DNA of 64,000 bases, taken from NCBI RefSeq assembly GCF_041435055.1, contig NZ_CP108002.1:3038001-3102000 (forward strand). Direction: 5' to 3'. Below, piece after piece: positions 13,587-41,713 of this stretch. This DNA is from Streptomyces sp. NBC_00341. GTDB lineage: Bacteria > Actinomycetota > Actinomycetes > Streptomycetales > Streptomycetaceae. Below the pieces are notes generated by a model. The model was not told the origin of the DNA and ran no database searches. It worked only from the letters and a program-made list of their open reading frames with translations. The position numbers and the translations under genes were made by a program. The stretch's first letter is position 1. Each line of letters opens with the position of its first letter.

Positions 13587-13887
13587 GTGACGGCTCTCCC
13601 TGAAACTGAGACCTCTGACGCTGGATCTGAGATCTTGGACATCGACAGGGACGCAACCGTCCGACACGCTACGGGTGAACGGGTGGGAACGGAACGTCCG
13701 GTTTTCCATCATCCCGCACACGCGCGTGACGCAACCCCTGGGGCCGTACGGGCGTCCCTCTCAACGCAGACCGAACCAGAGCGGCTGAGGGGTGCCGAGT
13801 GCACCCCTGGGGGAATCCCGGCCGCACCGCACCGTACGGTTGAACGTCCGCCGTCGGCCGCATGAACTCATGATGGAGAACTTCCGG
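13587..13887. other. Divergent intergenic region
   Basis: About 300 bases separate the phosphatase and PAP2-like gene starts. I see no convincing ORF or strong palindrome. It presumably holds the two divergent promoters, but no clear -10/-35 pair stands out. Confidence 0.5.
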
Positions 13888-14865
13888 ATGCCGCCTGCCA
13901 CCACCGCGCCCGCGCAGCGCCCCCGGCCCCGCTGGTGGACCGAGCTCCCGCTGCTCGCCCTGGTGTACGCGGCGTATTCGGGCGGCAGACTGCTGGTGCG
14001 CGGCGACGTGTCGACGGCCGTCGACCACGGACTGCGCATCCTGGACCTGGAACAGACGCTCCGTATCAACTTCGAGCACCCGCTGAACCGGCTGCTCACC
14101 GCGCACTCCTCGATCGGGATACCCGCCGACTTCGCGTACGCGTCGCTGCACTACCTGATAACCCCGGCCGTCCTCATCTGGATGTTCAGGCGCCACTCGC
14201 AGGCCTACCGCAGGGCCCGCACCTGGCTGATGACCTCCACGATGCTCGGCCTGATCGGCTTCACCCTGATGCCGACCTGCCCGCCCCGGCTGCTGGCCGC
14301 CGGACACGGCTTCGTCGACACGATGGCGCAGTACAGCTCGTACGGCTGGTGGGGCACAGAGGCGTCCGCCCCGCGCGGCATGGGCGGAATGACCAATCAG
14401 TACGCGGCGATGCCCAGCCTGCACGTCGGCTGGGCGCTGTGGTGCGGCATCCTCATCTGGCGCCACGGGCGCCACCCGCTCGTACGGGCGGCGGGCGTCG
14501 CCTACCCCCTGATCACCGTCTTCGTGGTGATGGGCACCGCCAACCACTACTTCCTCGACGCGGTGGCCGGCGCCGCCGTGATGGGCCTCGGCGCCCTGCT
14601 GGGCCGGCCCGTGACCCGGCTCGCCAACAAGGTCGCCGACGCGGCCAAGGCCCGCTTCGCACCGCCGAGTACGGCCGCGGAGTCCCCGGATGTCAGTGCC
14701 GGATGCAAGACTTCCGCGGGTGAGCGAATCCCCGGCCAGCGGACCTCCTCCGCAGACCCCACCGATGCCCCGGCACCGGCCGGTCCACCTGCCCCGGCCG
14801 ACGTCCCCGCCGGAAGCACCGCGGGACGTACCGTCGGCGGTGACACTGCGGCAGCGGCTCGCTGA
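13888..14865 (+). CDS. PAP2-superfamily membrane protein (phosphatase / lipid phosphotransferase)
   Basis: The ~325-residue integral membrane protein has about six hydrophobic segments between residues ~15 and 240. It contains the PAP2-type motifs TCPPRLL, YAAMPSLHVGWALW and TANHYFLDAVAGA. The S-x-H and the later N-H-x3-D carry the two catalytic histidines as in the inositol-phosphorylceramide-synthase-like branch. It should act on lipid phosphates at the membrane. ATG 13888 is preferred because GGAGAA lies 7 bases upstream. The hydrophilic C-terminal ~85 residues are Ala/Pro-rich and overlap the start of the nuclease gene in another frame. Confidence 0.8.
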   Translation: MPPATTAPAQRPRPRWWTELPLLALVYAAYSGGRLLVRGDVSTAVDHGLRILDLEQTLRINFEHPLNRLLTAHSSIGIPADFAYASLHYLITPAVLIWMFRRHSQAYRRARTWLMTSTMLGLIGFTLMPTCPPRLLAAGHGFVDTMAQYSSYGWWGTEASAPRGMGGMTNQYAAMPSLHVGWALWCGILIWRHGRHPLVRAAGVAYPLITVFVVMGTANHYFLDAVAGAAVMGLGALLGRPVTRLANKVADAAKARFAPPSTAAESPDVSAGCKTSAGERIPGQRTSSADPTDAPAPAGPPAPADVPAGSTAGRTVGGDTAAAAR

Positions 14866-15937
14866 GCTGAGGGGCCCGGCCGTCGCACCCCGTCCGCTGG
14901 ACGCCCGCGCACTGGCCGCCCTCGCCGCCAACCCCGGCTGCAAGCGGCGCGCCCTGCTCGACGGGGCCGGGGTCGACAAGACCGCCCTGGCCACCGCACT
15001 CGGCTCACCGGCCCCCTTCGGCCAGTCCCAGTTCGCCTTCATGCGCGGCAACGCCTTCGAGGCCAAGGTCAAGGCCGACGGCGGTACGGAGCTGATGCGG
15101 CTGCTGCACGAGCGGCTCGGTGAGCCCGGCGAACCCCCGCGCGACGTCGCGGTTCCCGATCTGAGCGCCGCCGGTCCAGAGGGCCGCGCCGCGCGCACCG
15201 CCCTGGCCCTGCGGGAGGCGACCGGGGCGGGCGGCTGGGCGCTGCTGGACCACCCGATGCTGGCCCTGGAGGTGGCGGGCTCGCCCGCCTATCTGGAGCC
15301 GGACGCGGTGGTGGTGCACCCCGACGGCACCTGGACGGTCGTCGAGATCAAGTCCTTCCCCATGATCGACGGCTCCGCCGACGCCGCGAAGGTCGGCGCG
15401 GCCGCCCGCCAGTCCGCGGTCTACGTGCTGGCGCTGGAGCGGATCGCCGCCGCCACCGACGGGGCTGAGGTAGGCCACCGGGTGCTGCTGGTCTGCCCCA
15501 AGGACTTCTCCAACCTGCCGGCCGCGTCCGTCGTCGACGTGCGCAAGCAGTGCGCGGTCACCCGCCGCCAGCTCATCCGGCTCACCCGGATCGAGGACAT
15601 CGCGGCGGCCCTGCCCGAGGGCACCACGTTCGACCCGGAGCGCTCCCCGGAGGAGCTGGGCCGCGCCGTCGAGTCGGTCACCGCGGCGTACGCGCCGGAG
15701 TGCCTGGCCGCCTGCGAGCTGGCCTTCCACTGCCGGGGCAAGGCGCGGGCCACCGGCGCGGTGGAGGCGCTGGGGCGCAGTGTGCGGGGCGAGCTCGGCG
15801 GGCTGACCACGGTCGGCGCGGTGCTGGCCGCGGCCGCGGGCAAGGAGGGCGATCCGGCGGACCCGACGGTCTCCGCGCTGCGCCGCGCCGCCGCGCTGCG
15901 CGCCGAGGCGTTGGAGGGCGGGTCCGGATGCCACTGA
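14690..15937 (+). CDS. Cas4/AddB-like Fe-S PD-(D/E)XK nuclease
   Basis: The product is 415 residues from ATG 14690 (a later GTG near 14840 would remove ~50 low-complexity residues and is possible). The nuclease core is EPDAVVVHPDGTWTVVEIKS: D205 and E219-x-K221 form the PD-(D/E)XK metal site. One Cys upstream (C84, NPGCKRRALL) and a C-terminal C338-x3-C342-x5-C348 cluster (ECLAACELAFHC) match the iron-sulfur 'staple' layout of Cas4, AddB and Dna2 nucleases. It overlaps the PAP2 gene by up to 176 bases and the next gene by 10. It is part of a coupled three-gene unit with an SF1B helicase. There are no CRISPR elements in the window, so it is not a Cas4 adaptation gene. Confidence 0.75.
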   Translation: MSVPDARLPRVSESPASGPPPQTPPMPRHRPVHLPRPTSPPEAPRDVPSAVTLRQRLAELRGPAVAPRPLDARALAALAANPGCKRRALLDGAGVDKTALATALGSPAPFGQSQFAFMRGNAFEAKVKADGGTELMRLLHERLGEPGEPPRDVAVPDLSAAGPEGRAARTALALREATGAGGWALLDHPMLALEVAGSPAYLEPDAVVVHPDGTWTVVEIKSFPMIDGSADAAKVGAAARQSAVYVLALERIAAATDGAEVGHRVLLVCPKDFSNLPAASVVDVRKQCAVTRRQLIRLTRIEDIAAALPEGTTFDPERSPEELGRAVESVTAAYAPECLAACELAFHCRGKARATGAVEALGRSVRGELGGLTTVGAVLAAAAGKEGDPADPTVSALRRAAALRAEALEGGSGCH

Positions 15938-17535
15938 TCTCCACCCTGGCCAGGCTGGAGGCCGTGGAGAACGGCCGCGCGCAGCCGCTGGCCACGGTCC
16001 GCCACCGCCGCCTCACGGACCGGCCGCTGGTCCTGGTGCCGCTGACCACGTCCGGCGAGGCGGGCGCCCCGCTCGGCGCCCTGGTCGGCTCCGAGCGGGA
16101 CGCGCCCCGGCTGCTGGTCGTGGCGCAGCCGCGCGACCGGGATCTGCGGTTCGCGTTCCTCGCGGAGCTGGCGGAGGCGGTGCTGCCGCACATCGAGTCG
16201 TACGCCGATGTCATCGAGCCCGCCGAGCGCAGCGAGACGGACCCGGCGACCGGCAAGAAGGTCAAGGTCGAGACCGAGCTGTGCACGGACGCCGCGCAGC
16301 TGATCGTGCCGAGCCGGGCGGGCATCGAGTTCGTCCGGCTGCTGGGCCGCTCCATGCGGTTCCGGCGCACCGTGGAGGACGACCCCGACACCCCGTATCC
16401 GGCGCCCGCCCGCGTCCCGCTGCTGGGCCGCTGGCTGACGCACTACGGCGAGCGCGCCCGGGTGCCGGGCTCCTCGCTGCTGCTGGCCTGCACCGATCTG
16501 CTCAACCGGCACTGGGCGAGCGGCCAGTCCAGCCTGGAGGACCAGCACCTGGGCGCCCTGCTCGCCTGGGTCGATCCACCGGCCGGCGAGTCTGGGGCCG
16601 AGGCCGCGCTCCGCGCCGAGCTGGCCCGGGACCGCGCGGGACAGCTGCTCTGCCCGCCCGCCGGACCGGCCACCGACCCGGACTTCGACAACCGGCTGCT
16701 GGCCCCCGCGATCGAGCGGTACGACCGCGCGCGCACCGCGCTGGCCGCCGCGGAGGACGGTCTGTCGGCCGATGCCGGGCTCGCCGCGCTGACGGCGGCC
16801 GAGCGGGAGATCAGGGCGCTGCTGGCGGGCGTGCTGCGGCCGACCTGGGACGCCGTGTGGCGGGGCCTGGACCTGCTGCGGGAGCTGCCGGAGGGGGCCA
16901 GGACCGAGGACCGCTGGACCCGCGACCGCTGGTCGTTCACCGGCCACCGCGACCGGGTGCGGTCCGGCGAGCCGCCGCAGCCGCGCCGGGACGACGCGGT
17001 GACGGCGGCCCGCAAGCTCGCCTCGCGGGAGACCGCCCAGGCGCAGCTGGAGGCCCAGGAGGCGCTGGACGATCCGCTGGTGCTGGCCGGCCGGCGGCTG
17101 GCGGGCGAGGCGTTCCTCGGGGAGGTGACCGGGGTGGAGATGACGTACACCGAGTCGAAGCGCCCCTCGCCGCGCCCGCTGGTCACCGTGCGCACGGCAG
17201 AGCAGCCGCAGCTGGCGGAGCGTCTGAAGGTCTACCGCTCGCTGGACGGCAAGCCGCAGACCGCCGAGTTCGCCGGGTACGGGCCGCCGGAGGAGGGCGA
17301 GCCGCCCGCGCTGGTGCTGCGGATCACCGACCGGATGGGCCGGGGCAGGGAGCCGGCCCCTGGTTCGGTGCCGGAGCCCGGTGACCGGATCGCCTGGACG
17401 CTCTTCGAGCACGACCAGCGCGGCGGCCCGAAGCTGCCGGAGCCGGAGGAGACACCCTGGACCCACGGCGGTCCGCCGGGCTCCGGGGCGGCTGTGGAGA
17501 GCCCCGATCCCGTGACCCCGGAGGACCTGCTGTGA
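15928..17535 (+). CDS. Large protein of unknown function in the nuclease-helicase operon
   Basis: The 535-residue protein starts at ATG 15928 (MPLISTLARLEAVENG), with GGAGGGCGGG just upstream inside the preceding gene. Its N-terminal part (~1-120) is beta-rich (RPLVLVPLTTSGEAGAPLG, RLLVVAQPRDRDLRF). The middle (~150-330) is helical and Ala-rich. The C-terminal domain (~380-490) looks beta-barrel-like (FLGEVTGVEMTYTESKRPSP ... RPLVTVRTAEQPQLAERLKV). An acidic/proline tail ends the chain. I recognise no catalytic motif or known family. The 10-base overlap with the nuclease and 4-base overlap (GTGA) with the helicase argue that it is a stoichiometric partner, perhaps a DNA-binding or bridging subunit. 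Confidence 0.8.
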   Translation: MPLISTLARLEAVENGRAQPLATVRHRRLTDRPLVLVPLTTSGEAGAPLGALVGSERDAPRLLVVAQPRDRDLRFAFLAELAEAVLPHIESYADVIEPAERSETDPATGKKVKVETELCTDAAQLIVPSRAGIEFVRLLGRSMRFRRTVEDDPDTPYPAPARVPLLGRWLTHYGERARVPGSSLLLACTDLLNRHWASGQSSLEDQHLGALLAWVDPPAGESGAEAALRAELARDRAGQLLCPPAGPATDPDFDNRLLAPAIERYDRARTALAAAEDGLSADAGLAALTAAEREIRALLAGVLRPTWDAVWRGLDLLRELPEGARTEDRWTRDRWSFTGHRDRVRSGEPPQPRRDDAVTAARKLASRETAQAQLEAQEALDDPLVLAGRRLAGEAFLGEVTGVEMTYTESKRPSPRPLVTVRTAEQPQLAERLKVYRSLDGKPQTAEFAGYGPPEEGEPPALVLRITDRMGRGREPAPGSVPEPGDRIAWTLFEHDQRGGPKLPEPEETPWTHGGPPGSGAAVESPDPVTPEDLL

Positions 17536-18866
17536 GCGACCGACTCGACCCGGGGGCGGCGGCGGGCCGGGCCACCGCCCAGATCCTGGACGACACGCTG
17601 AACGGCACCGCGCGCGGCATCGTGGTGGACTCCCCGCCCGGCGCGGGCAAGTCCACCCTGGTGGTCCGCGCCGCGCTCGAACTCGCGGCGGCCGGCCGCC
17701 CGCTGATGGTCGTCGCCCAGACGAACGCCCAGGTCGACGACCTGGTGGTGCGGCTGGCCGAGAAGGACCCCGGGCTCCCGGTCGGCCGGCTGCACAGCAG
17801 CGACTCGGACCCGTACGACAAGGTGCTGGACGGGCTGGACAACGTACGCAAGTCGGCGAAGGCGGCGGATCTGGCCGGGCTGGACATCGTCATCTCGACG
17901 GCCGCCAAGTGGGCCCATGTGAAGAACGTCGAGCCGTGGGGGCACGCGATCGTCGACGAGGCGTACCAGATGCGCTCCGACGCGCTGCTGGCCGTCGCCG
18001 GGCTCTTCGAACGGGCGCTGTTCGTGGGCGATCCGGGCCAGCTCGACCCGTTCTCGATCGTCGGCGCGGACCAGTGGGCGGGGCTGAGTTACGACCCGTC
18101 CGCGAGCGCGGTCTCCACGTTGCTGGCGCACAATCCGGAGCTGCCGCAGCGCAGGCTGCCGGTCTCCTGGCGGTTGCCCGCGTCGGCCGCGCAGCTGGTC
18201 TCGGACGCGTTCTACCCGTACACCCCGTTCCGCAGCGGTACCGACCACGGGGACCGGCTGCTGTCGTTCGGCGTCGGGTCCGACGGCTCACCGGCCGACC
18301 GGGTGCTGGACGAGGCCGCGGAGTCCGGCTGGGGGCTGCTGGAGCTGCCCGCCCGGCACACCCCGCGCACGGACCCGGAGGCGGTCCGGGCGGTGGCCAC
18401 GGTGGTGCGCCGGCTCCTCGACCGGGGCGGCGCGGCCACCAGCGAGCGTTCTCCGGACCCGGCCCCGGTGACGGCGGACCGGGTGGCGGTCGGCACGGCC
18501 CACCGCGACCAGGCGGCGGCGGTGCGGGCGGCGCTCGCGGAGCTGGGGGTGACGGGCGTGGCGGTGGACACCGCGAACCGGCTCCAGGGCCGCGAGTTCG
18601 ATGTGACGGTGGTCCTGCACCCGCTGTCCGGGCGGCCGGACGCCACGGCGTTCCATCTGGAGACGGGCCGGCTGTGTGTGCTGGCCTCGCGCCACCGGCA
18701 CGCCTGCATCGTGGTCTGCCGCGCGGGCGTCGCGGAGCTGCTCGACGAGCACCCGTCCACGGAGCCGGTCCAGCTGGGCGTCACCGTGAAGTTCCCGGAC
18801 GGCTGGGAGGCGAACCACCGGGTGCTGGCGCATCTGGCGGAACACCGCGTGCGCTGGGGGCGTTGA
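17532..18866 (+). CDS. SF1B (Dna2/UPF1-like) DNA/RNA helicase
   Basis: The 444-residue ATPase shows motif I SPPGAGKST (residues 34-42), Q/Ia VVAQTNAQVDDL, motif II HAIVDEAYQM, motif III FVGDPGQLDPF and motif IV SWRLP. It also shows motif V TANRLQGREFDVTVVLHPL and motif VI SRHRHACIVV. The order and the TNAQVDD and GDPGQL forms are typical of the SF1B UPF1/Dna2 group, 5'-to-3' helicases. It starts with GTG at 17532 overlapping the preceding stop by 4 bases. The residues usually contributing a long 1B/stalk insertion are absent, so this is a compact version. Paired with a Dna2-type Fe-S nuclease in a separate gene, it resembles a split Dna2. Confidence 0.85.
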   Translation: MSDRLDPGAAAGRATAQILDDTLNGTARGIVVDSPPGAGKSTLVVRAALELAAAGRPLMVVAQTNAQVDDLVVRLAEKDPGLPVGRLHSSDSDPYDKVLDGLDNVRKSAKAADLAGLDIVISTAAKWAHVKNVEPWGHAIVDEAYQMRSDALLAVAGLFERALFVGDPGQLDPFSIVGADQWAGLSYDPSASAVSTLLAHNPELPQRRLPVSWRLPASAAQLVSDAFYPYTPFRSGTDHGDRLLSFGVGSDGSPADRVLDEAAESGWGLLELPARHTPRTDPEAVRAVATVVRRLLDRGGAATSERSPDPAPVTADRVAVGTAHRDQAAAVRAALAELGVTGVAVDTANRLQGREFDVTVVLHPLSGRPDATAFHLETGRLCVLASRHRHACIVVCRAGVAELLDEHPSTEPVQLGVTVKFPDGWEANHRVLAHLAEHRVRWGR

Positions 18867-18981: not shown

Positions 18982-19323
18982 ATGGCACAACCCGAGCGGA
19001 ACGAGCGGCAGCGGCTGCGCCCCGCGCCCCTGCTCTTCGAGCCGTCGGCGTCGGTCGCCGATCCGGAGCACTTCTTCGACCTGGAGTCGATGGAGGATCC
19101 GAAGGAGCTGCTGAGCCGTTCCACCGAGCTGGCCCTGGCGTTCCGCGCCGCGACCGACCGGGCGGTCGAGTTCCAGGCGATCGCCGCCGCCCAGCTGGCC
19201 GATCCGCGCCGGTTCGACCGGCTCACCACGGCGGACATCGCGCGGCGGGCGGAGTGGACGGAGGACTACGCGACGAAGATGGTCGAGTTCGGCCGGAGCC
19301 TGCTGAACGGCCCCAGGCCCTGA
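18982..19323 (+). CDS. Small conserved-looking hypothetical protein
   Basis: The 113-residue soluble protein has a strong Shine-Dalgarno (GGAGGAGG from 18965). Residues ~28-60 read DPEHFFDLESMEDPKELLSR. The C-terminal half is amphipathic helix (STELALAFRAATDRAVEFQA ... TTADIARRAEWTEDYATKM). The ADIARRAEWTEDYA stretch hints at a degenerate helix-turn-helix, but no family is recognised. It follows the nuclease-helicase operon by 115 bases on the same strand, with a terminator-like hairpin between. A functional link is possible but not shown. Confidence 0.65.
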   Translation: MAQPERNERQRLRPAPLLFEPSASVADPEHFFDLESMEDPKELLSRSTELALAFRAATDRAVEFQAIAAAQLADPRRFDRLTTADIARRAEWTEDYATKMVEFGRSLLNGPRP

Positions 19324-19380: not shown

Positions 19381-19517
19381 CTGATCATGACCGGTGCTGA
19401 CTGTGGGTAGAACCACTGGCATATGCCCTGGGGCAAGATACTCCTCACCACCCCGGCCTGTCCCGGTTTCCGGCAACTCTCGGAATCCGCTTGATCACTC
19501 CCGGTAGACCTGTGTGC

Positions 19518-20246
19518 ATGACCGCATGGCTGCCAGACGAAACGACCCTGCATCACGGCGACGGCCCCTACCGGGAAGACCGGGCCGCCGACGTGTTCGC
19601 CGTCCTGCGCGAGCAGGCCGGTGACCAGACGGCTCAGGTGACCGCGGCCGGTGCCGCCTGGCTGGCCGGCGCGGCGGCGTATCCGCGCAGCGCCCTGAGC
19701 CAGTGGGAGTCGCACCCGTCCGCCCCCGGTGTGCTGCCGTGCGGCTCGTCCTTCGACGTGGTGAACGTGCCCACGCTCTTCGGGCGCCGGATGCTCGAAC
19801 ACCTCTGGGCGGACGGGCCGGGCTCCGGACCCGTCGCCACGCACCGCGGCCGGATGCTGCTCTTCGCCTCCCCCGGGACGGCCCAGCGGCTGCCCTCGCT
19901 GCTCGACTGGGAGGAGTGGGGCGGGGGCGCCGCGTCCCGGTCCGCGGGGGGTTCGGCGGGGGGTTCTGCGGGGCGGGACGAGAGCGGCCGGAAGGTGCCA
20001 CCGCTGCTCTGTCACGGCACCGGGGACGCGGTGACCGTGCCGCCCCTGACCTGTGGGCCGAACGCCTCGGGCCCCCGTTGGGTGGTCGCCCCCGACACCC
20101 GCAGCCCCTGGCTGCCCGGACCCGACGTACTGCTCTGGGCGTGTGTGCGGGTGGCCCGCTCGGTGCCCTCTTCGGGGCCCCGTATTTCGATTTTTCCTCC
20201 CGCCGATCAGGGTGCTAAGGTCTACGACGTCAGCAGGCGCCGCTAG
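19518..20246 (+). CDS. Hypothetical protein, possible degenerate Prim-Pol (primase/polymerase-like) domain
   Basis: The product is 242 residues from ATG 19518 (MTAWLPDETTLHHGDGPYRE). The pattern LPCGSSFDVVNVPTLFGRRM, then a GPVATHRGRMLLFASPG strand and LLDWEEWG, recalls the C-terminal half of the short Prim-Pol-like proteins common in Streptomyces. The acidic catalytic residues are not evident, so any enzymatic role is doubtful. A Gly/Ser insertion (SAGGSAGGSAG) is repetitive. The stop codon TAG (20244-20246) lies inside the tRNA-Lys gene, and the tRNA promoter region is inside this ORF. The last ~25 residues are therefore encoded by tRNA control DNA. Confidence 0.5.
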   Translation: MTAWLPDETTLHHGDGPYREDRAADVFAVLREQAGDQTAQVTAAGAAWLAGAAAYPRSALSQWESHPSAPGVLPCGSSFDVVNVPTLFGRRMLEHLWADGPGSGPVATHRGRMLLFASPGTAQRLPSLLDWEEWGGGAASRSAGGSAGGSAGRDESGRKVPPLLCHGTGDAVTVPPLTCGPNASGPRWVVAPDTRSPWLPGPDVLLWACVRVARSVPSSGPRISIFPPADQGAKVYDVSRRR

Positions 20247-20310
20247 CTCAGTTGGTTAGAGCAGCTGACTCTTAATCAGCGGGTCCGGGGTTCGAGTCCC
20301 TGGCGGCGCA
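20237..20310 (+). tRNA. tRNA-Lys (anticodon CTT), copy 1
   Basis: The 74-nt sequence folds as a standard cloverleaf. The acceptor stem GCGCCGC pairs with GCGGCGC and is followed by discriminator A. TAGCTCAGTTGGTTAGAGC forms the D-arm, CTGACTCTTAATCAG the anticodon arm with anticodon CTT (Lys, codon AAG), and GGGTTCGAGTCCC the T-arm. CCA is not encoded. A -10 candidate TAAGGT (20216-20221) ends 15 bases before the mature 5' end, and the leader ends in GTCAGCAG. It is identical to the genes at 34198 and 41635. Confidence 0.97.
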
Positions 20311-20316
20311 CAGACG

Positions 20317-34197: not shown

Positions 34198-34271
34198 GCG
34201 CCGCTAGCTCAGTTGGTTAGAGCAGCTGACTCTTAATCAGCGGGTCCGGGGTTCGAGTCCCTGGCGGCGCA
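34198..34271 (+). tRNA. tRNA-Lys (anticodon CTT), copy 2
   Basis: It is base-for-base identical to the copy at 20237. The leader again ends in GTCAGCAG, and a -10 candidate TATTAT (34178-34183) ends 14 bases upstream of the mature 5' end. Confidence 0.97.
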
Positions 34272-34276
34272 CAGAC

Positions 34277-41634: not shown

Positions 41635-41708
41635 GCGCCGCTAGCTCAGTTGGTTAGAGCAGCTGACTCTTAATCAGCGGGTCCGGGGTTCGAGTCCCTG
41701 GCGGCGCA
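41635..41708 (+). tRNA. tRNA-Lys (anticodon CTT), copy 3
   Basis: This is the third identical copy, again with leader GTCAGCAG and a -10 candidate TAGAGT (41614-41619) ending 15 bases before the tRNA. Confidence 0.97.
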
Positions 41709-41713
41709 CGCAT

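Follow-up and report, generated by a model that had tools for sequence, protein, structure and literature searches.

Dna2 joins, in a single chain, an iron-sulfur (Fe-S) nuclease of the RecB type and an SF1B motor of the Upf1 type, and in Cas4, AddB, and Dna2, the cysteine triad is spaced C-x2-C-x5-C. TM0106-type proteins (TIGR03491), 12 of 13 of which were found fused to an SF1 helicase among those that we fetched, likewise combine a nuclease with a helicase. Here, we describe a comparable set of parts spread over three genes, NUC, MID, and HEL, on the forward strand of a 64,000-nucleotide stretch of the 9.06-Mb genome of Streptomyces sp. NBC_00341 (contig NZ_CP108002.1, positions 3,038,001 to 3,102,000; this whole stretch is called the window, and coordinates are counted from its first letter). 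Most likely, they encode a machine that processes DNA ends as a measure against invading DNA and whose core copy has been domesticated; with a probability of about 0.6, NUC, MID, and HEL make up one DNA helicase-nuclease, whose accessory form, bearing a fourth gene (UPS), would be a degradative anti-invader arm and whose core copy, the one in the window, would be a derivative for DNA-end processing. The parts of the trio in the window are as follows.

14690..15937, plus strand: NUC, Cas4/AddB/Dna2-like PD-(D/E)XK nuclease with four cysteines, 415 aa
14939..14941, plus strand: NUC C84, first predicted Fe-S ligand, in 140/141 homologue rows
15296..15352, plus strand: NUC active-site core, E203-P-D205 ... 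E219-I-K221
15410..15424, plus strand: NUC Q241-x3-Y245
15701..15733, plus strand: NUC C338-x3-C342-x5-C348, predicted Fe-S ligands
15928..17535, plus strand: MID, middle subunit, 535 aa
16018..16926, plus strand: MID residues 31-333, RNase-H-like domain, compare the exonuclease domain of B-family DNA polymerases (fold level only)
16990..17457, plus strand: MID residues 355-510, stalk and 1B barrel of Upf1-like SF1B helicases (fold level only)
17532..18866, plus strand: HEL, Upf1-like SF1B helicase motor, RecA domains only, 444 aa
17631..17657, plus strand: HEL motif I (Walker A), SPPGAGKST

The three open reading frames (ORFs) overlap by 10 bases (NUC/MID) and 4 bases (MID/HEL), as a sequence-only reading of the window had noted, and all of the residues that it had named in the first gene (D205, E219, K221, C84, and C338-x3-C342-x5-C348) were verified in NUC. 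D205, E219, and K221 form the PD-(D/E)XK core, to which can now be added Q241 and Y245, which we take to be the QxxxY motif of RecB-type nucleases. The cysteine layout had been likened to that of Fe-S nucleases; the four residues, one N-terminal and three C-terminal, indeed flank the nuclease fold and recur in 140 of the 141 rows of homologues, the exception being a truncated sequence, so that the layout is not a matter of chance (in this residue table, rows L013 and L110 of the core set come from one locus, L078 is without NUC, and L054 is cut). By its sequence and its fold, NUC is a nuclease of the Cas4/AddB/Dna2 type with a predicted 4Fe-4S cluster. It belongs to the same RecB-like PD-(D/E)XK class as the Fe-S nucleases Cas4, AddB, Exo5, and Dna2 but differs from them in its C-x3-C-x5-C triad, in having no family-model match over the cut-off (Pfam gave a sub-threshold match only, PDDEXK_1, E 0.11, and NCBIfam and PADLOC 2.0 gave none), in its partnership with a split helicase, and in the disappearance of its catalytic residues in one lineage. 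The least secure feature of NUC is its start codon, because its 5' end overlaps the PAP2 gene (13792-14865) and the first ~45 residues are unconserved outside Streptomyces.

The complete SF1B motif set noted in the third gene is also there. Motif I of HEL (SPPGAGKST) begins at residue 34, motif II (DEAY) spans residues 142-145, and Ia, III, IV, V, and VI are present as well; most motif positions are kept in at least 64 of 69 homologues, the more variable ones being the fifth of Ia, the first of II, and the second and seventh of VI. Pfam AAA_11 and AAA_12 match HEL over the cut-off, PADLOC gives partial cross-matches only (best MkoA, 1e-8), and the nearest solved sequences include Dna2. HEL starts at the RecA domain; its residue 31 aligns to Ighmbp2 residue 209, and the region preceding the RecA domains is therefore absent from it. 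Thus, HEL does not carry the stalk and 1B barrel that Upf1-like helicases have N-terminally in the same chain, and a similar barrel appears, at the level of the fold, in MID. The sequence-only reading could not assign this middle subunit to any family, which holds in that MID has no NCBIfam or PADLOC match and only sub-threshold Pfam matches, but two domains can be recognized at the level of the fold. In a confident model of the predicted structure, the C-terminal region of MID resembles a helicase stalk and 1B barrel (those of SETX, Sen1, and Ighmbp2, which are the best helicase matches of the barrel), whereas the N-terminal region resembles the RNase-H-like exonuclease domain of B-family polymerases; this half is probably not catalytic, because its first strand has no conserved acid. 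A Foldseek search with the whole MID model, run against the PDB and against viral models, had no hit below 0.001, which is no proof of a new fold. Because HEL is without the preceding domain and the MID fold resembles a stalk and 1B barrel, the helicase would be split over two chains: MID seems to supply the stalk and barrel to HEL, and the working Upf1/Dna2-type helicase would be MID plus HEL. An apparent MID-HEL fusion in one locus (L023) was dropped as a product of a frameshift and masked sequence.

Compared with Dna2, in which all parts reside in one chain, the parts here are on three, encoded by separate genes in 79 complete loci, and the helicase 1B barrel is apparently found on a separate subunit together with an RNase-H-like half. 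The TM0106 helicase is homologous to HEL (hhalign, 99.2%), and the order of nuclease, RNase-H-like part, and helicase is similar, the RNase_H_2 domain having been tested in a single unfused protein of this type only. That protein, a TM0106-like RecB plus RNase_H_2 protein, is encoded after the divergent trio of a genome from outside the class (L130, 5062-6753, minus strand). MID and NUC were considered as remote TM0106 members, but profile comparison was insignificant (probabilities of 0.6% and 0.4%), and only the parallel in order was kept; the TIGR03491 model has zero matches in the window genome.

The trio was found in the same arrangement well beyond Streptomyces. A scan of named genomes yielded at least 547 relatives, the best 80 of which were analyzed as loci and span Nocardia, Actinomadura, Micromonospora, Streptosporangium, Nonomuraea, Dactylosporangium, and Frankia, among others (24 of the 80 were omitted from alignments A5-A7 as near-duplicates or cut loci, and six more from A7). 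MID and HEL are present in 80/80 and NUC in 79/80, always as NUC-MID-HEL on one strand, which bears out the strict co-occurrence by which the sequence-only reading was to be checked; the sole locus without NUC begins near a contig end. Gaps of at most 20 bases separate NUC from MID in 51 and MID from HEL in 47 of the 79 complete loci, although the MID-HEL distance reaches 1.0-2.5 kb in 4/80. Between MID and HEL, two of these four, both Micromonospora loci, hold a GmrSD-type (type IV restriction-like) gene (L073, 11622-13919; L081, 11579-13915). Outside the class, genome G272 (L130) keeps the trio in order at ~23% (NUC) and ~35% (HEL) identity. In G224 (L131), NUC-MID is found without UPS, a GGDEF/EAL gene adjoins MID, and HEL lies on the same strand at a distance of 38 kb. 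MID is present in the window genome and 12/12 same-genus relatives (16/21 genomes overall); across a phylum sample of 396 genomes, MID occurs in 15 and NUC in 16, 15 being common to both; in G185, the only match is a weak and partial one to NUC. Each of the 12 same-genus genomes in this sample is positive. Close relatives that bear names (best 120 of 3284; best 120 of 3054) are hypothetical proteins, mostly from Streptomyces, a few of these best-listed relatives being labeled secreted proteins and others having no name. A phage or viral origin was rejected, as viral contigs held no MID relative and phage records no MID or HEL relative.

Clustering of flanking ORFs revealed a fourth gene, UPS (~270 aa), directly upstream of NUC. 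By tblastn, it is found in 72 of the 80 loci; of the eight misses, four are at contig ends (L054, L078, L088, L094) and four have room for it (L077, L097, L102, L105). UPS begins with a stretch that has weak coiled-coil matches among solved structures, carries an LRRDE stretch kept in all 29 chosen sequences of alignment A8, has no Pfam match over the cut-off and no PADLOC match, and may bind DNA or the partner module. It was not found in the window genome. In a FastTree phylogeny of the three concatenated proteins from 70 chosen loci (outgroup L130, a distant root), the core copies from Streptomyces, 12 in number, fall into a single clade with support of 1.0; UPS was probably lost in this lineage, because the clade is nested among UPS-bearing ones.

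UPS-bearing copies occur in 32/392 Streptomyces genomes, 31 of which carry one or more additional copies of MID, G731 being the exception with a single copy. Taking one locus from each of the 32, with three from other genomes of the same order and two from plasmids, gave 37 accessory loci; an 11.85-Mb Nonomuraea record from the plasmid collection (L186) was left out. All 37 read UPS-NUC-MID-HEL. Within 0.7 kb upstream, 22 have a divergent SbcD-SbcC pair and 11 have divergent pPIWI-RE genes (PprPDDEXK-PprRE-PprDinG), the other four having neither; the pPIWI-RE protein itself is present in both of the loci tested. Upstream genes of the accessory loci L227, L231, L241, and L242 had no PADLOC match, 10 of 57 ORFs near unlabeled accessory loci having been searched. 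Directly 3' of HEL, Wadjet JetA follows in ten loci, all SbcCD-linked (type I in six, type II in four), with JetC in 6/6 and JetD detected in 3/6 of the type I loci. HmaA is found directly 3' of HEL in 2/37 and a helicase with an HA domain in 2/37; three loci have a weaker HmaA-like match at 7 kb downstream, which, in the one tested, fits an HKD plus Snf2 model better. PD-Lambda-1 or GmrSD-type genes are near some other copies, and a labeled downstream gene is missing in 20/37. SbcCD-linked copies on long or complete replicons are mostly terminal: 4.7 kb from the replicon end in G499 (L218), 6.7 kb at both ends in G702 (L226), ~24 kb at both ends in G459 (L238) and G533 (L240), and ~11 kb from a linear plasmid end in L185, unlike G514 (L239) at ~0.5 Mb. 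Those linked to pPIWI-RE and located on multi-Mb contigs (G009, G446, G581, G598, G655, G670) are internal. At L133 (7177-8891), a short SbcD match is followed by an ORF labeled TniQ-like from its sequence, which suggests a transposon insertion into the SbcCD partner.

The state of the NUC active site differs with the partner. The five catalytic residues (D205, E219, K221, Q241, Y245) are intact in 22/22 SbcCD-linked and 0/11 pPIWI-RE-linked copies, in two of the four copies without a recognized partner, and in 79/82 readable copies from elsewhere. The pPIWI-RE-linked copies carry E219L and K221R in eight cases and D205Q, K221R, and Y245S in three, their cysteines being retained. A Fisher test of site loss (11/11 versus 0/22) gives 5e-9, a statistic that does not account for kinship among these related copies: the broken copies included in the tree fall within one clade of Streptomyces copies (L105, from another family, stands apart), so the loss may be one event followed by divergence. 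A D...ELK core and a C-terminal C-x2-C-x5-C are preserved in all six PprPDDEXK sequences aligned from the 11 loci, and the simplest reading of these residues is that nuclease work may have shifted to PprPDDEXK, with NUC retained as a structural subunit.

From the order, linkage, motifs, and folds, we infer a complex whose activity, direction, and purpose might be these. SbcCD would open or mark a DNA end, or pPIWI-RE would mark a target, and UPS would connect this signal to the cassette; NUC-MID-HEL would load on DNA ends or gaps, MID-HEL would unwind the DNA, and NUC would cut or degrade a strand, a step probably taken by PprPDDEXK in pPIWI-RE-linked loci, with the RNase-H-like half of MID bridging helicase and nuclease. 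According to one report (PMC10586767), Wadjet cuts smaller circular plasmids and linear plasmids escape it. Because linear plasmids evade Wadjet, a cassette that destroys the linear DNA left by it would close this gap. A bolder proposal, for which we put the odds slightly short of even, is that UPS-NUC-MID-HEL is an unrecognized immune effector cassette of actinomycetes, with exchangeable sensors (DNA ends being sensed by SbcCD and guide-targeted DNA by pPIWI-RE), a Wadjet relay, a helicase assembled in trans, and a NUC site dropped when the sensor brings a nuclease, one three-gene copy having been domesticated in Streptomyces.

An unlikely, though serious, alternative is a complex with a plain housekeeping role in the resection of double-strand breaks or the repair of replication forks, like AddAB or archaeal Mre11-Rad50-HerA-NurA, the defense neighbors then reflecting the mere clustering of accessory genes. 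The core copy is present in all 12 and all 12 same-genus genomes of the two samples and is syntenic, flanks are conserved in Actinomadura and Streptosporangiaceae, SbcCD, the commonest partner, is itself a repair complex, and viral contigs and phage records hold no match; however, pPIWI-RE genes opposite 11/37 accessory loci, Wadjet genes of two types after 10/37, HmaA, PD-Lambda-1, or GmrSD-type genes near others, and the restriction of UPS-bearing copies to so few Streptomyces genomes argue for a role against invaders. One observation weighs against such a role. In the available flanks of the 80 loci from other families, no SbcCD, pPIWI-RE, Wadjet, or Hma partners were found, apart from the GmrSD-type gene of the two Micromonospora loci and partial GmrSD-type matches flanking three Nocardia loci; the association with defense islands that the sequence-only reading wanted surveyed holds for pPIWI-RE and Wadjet beside Streptomycetales accessory copies and for essentially none of these 80.

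It is improbable, on the other hand, that the trio processes R-loops or RNA-DNA hybrids, with a Upf1/Sen1/SETX-like helicase removing or targeting transcripts on DNA that is invading or the cell's own, while the nuclease cuts the displaced strand. The barrel matches of MID point this way, but NUC has a DNase fold, and the solved sequences nearest to HEL also include Dna2, which acts on DNA. It has been proposed that pPIWI-RE, together with a DinG helicase, works on DNA-RNA hybrids (PMC3702460), whereas the commonest partner here is a Rad50-type complex, a recognizer of DNA ends (PMC10586767). We give almost no credence to three unrelated neighbors kept together by chance or shared expression: the distant HEL of G224 and the four loci with wide MID-HEL spacing would fit, but the order is kept in 79/80 loci over many genera, in 37/37 accessory loci, and at the low identities seen outside the class. 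A DNA-processing machine for repair, recombination, or antiphage defense, as the trio had first been described, is supported.

For the core copy, PAP2 is found in 19 of 22 core loci and PAP2 or a histidine phosphatase gene in 21, the remaining locus ending within NUC, and the catalytic residues are intact in 21/21 core rows (20 genomes). Because synteny is kept, the active site is intact, and UPS is absent, the window copy would have a fixed cellular role in DNA-end processing; we infer a vertically inherited derivative without UPS that may process DNA ends in repair or basal restriction. Beside it lies one further feature.

18982..19323, plus strand: 113-aa ORF adjoining HEL; a part in the machine is not implied

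This ORF also occurs in two of the three other core loci with enough flank, as does a 251-aa ORF (19491-20246) with a Prim-Pol domain match over the cut-off (E 2.8e-6), just before a tRNA-Lys gene. The window has three tRNA-Lys(CTT) genes within 22 kb (20237-20311, 34198-34272, and 41635-41709).

Among known anti-phage systems, PADLOC 2.0 has no model matching NUC, MID, or UPS, and a full-text search of the open-licence literature (titles and abstracts) returned nothing on the operon, which does not prove that no such paper exists. The parts belong to known superfamilies, and, as far as we have seen, the split helicase, MID, UPS, and the exchangeable partners are undescribed. These data offer a domain assignment and a functional hypothesis for three or four families of hypothetical proteins; if correct, they would describe a helicase whose 1B domain comes from a partner protein and tie Wadjet, pPIWI-RE, and end recognition of the Mre11-Rad50 type to one common effector, with the natural loss of the NUC site in the pPIWI-RE lineage as a ready case of division of labor. 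The published pPIWI-RE triad consists of a REase, a DinG helicase, and pPIWI-RE, NUC-MID-HEL not figuring in the portion of that report available to us (PMC3702460); in the 11 accessory loci, the Cas4-like PD-(D/E)XK protein of this neighboring system adjoins UPS. Wadjet (JetABCD), the 3' neighbor in ten accessory loci, is a separate system, found as JetA-D in three loci and JetA-C in three more, JetA alone having been sought in the four type II loci. Archaeal HerA and NurA belong to other helicase and nuclease families than HEL and NUC. The archaeal rad50-mre11 genes are linked to nurA and herA (PMC2288612), and here, likewise, a Mre11-Rad50-type pair lies beside a helicase and a nuclease gene; unlike in the archaeal case, the SbcCD pair is divergent and can be replaced by pPIWI-RE genes.

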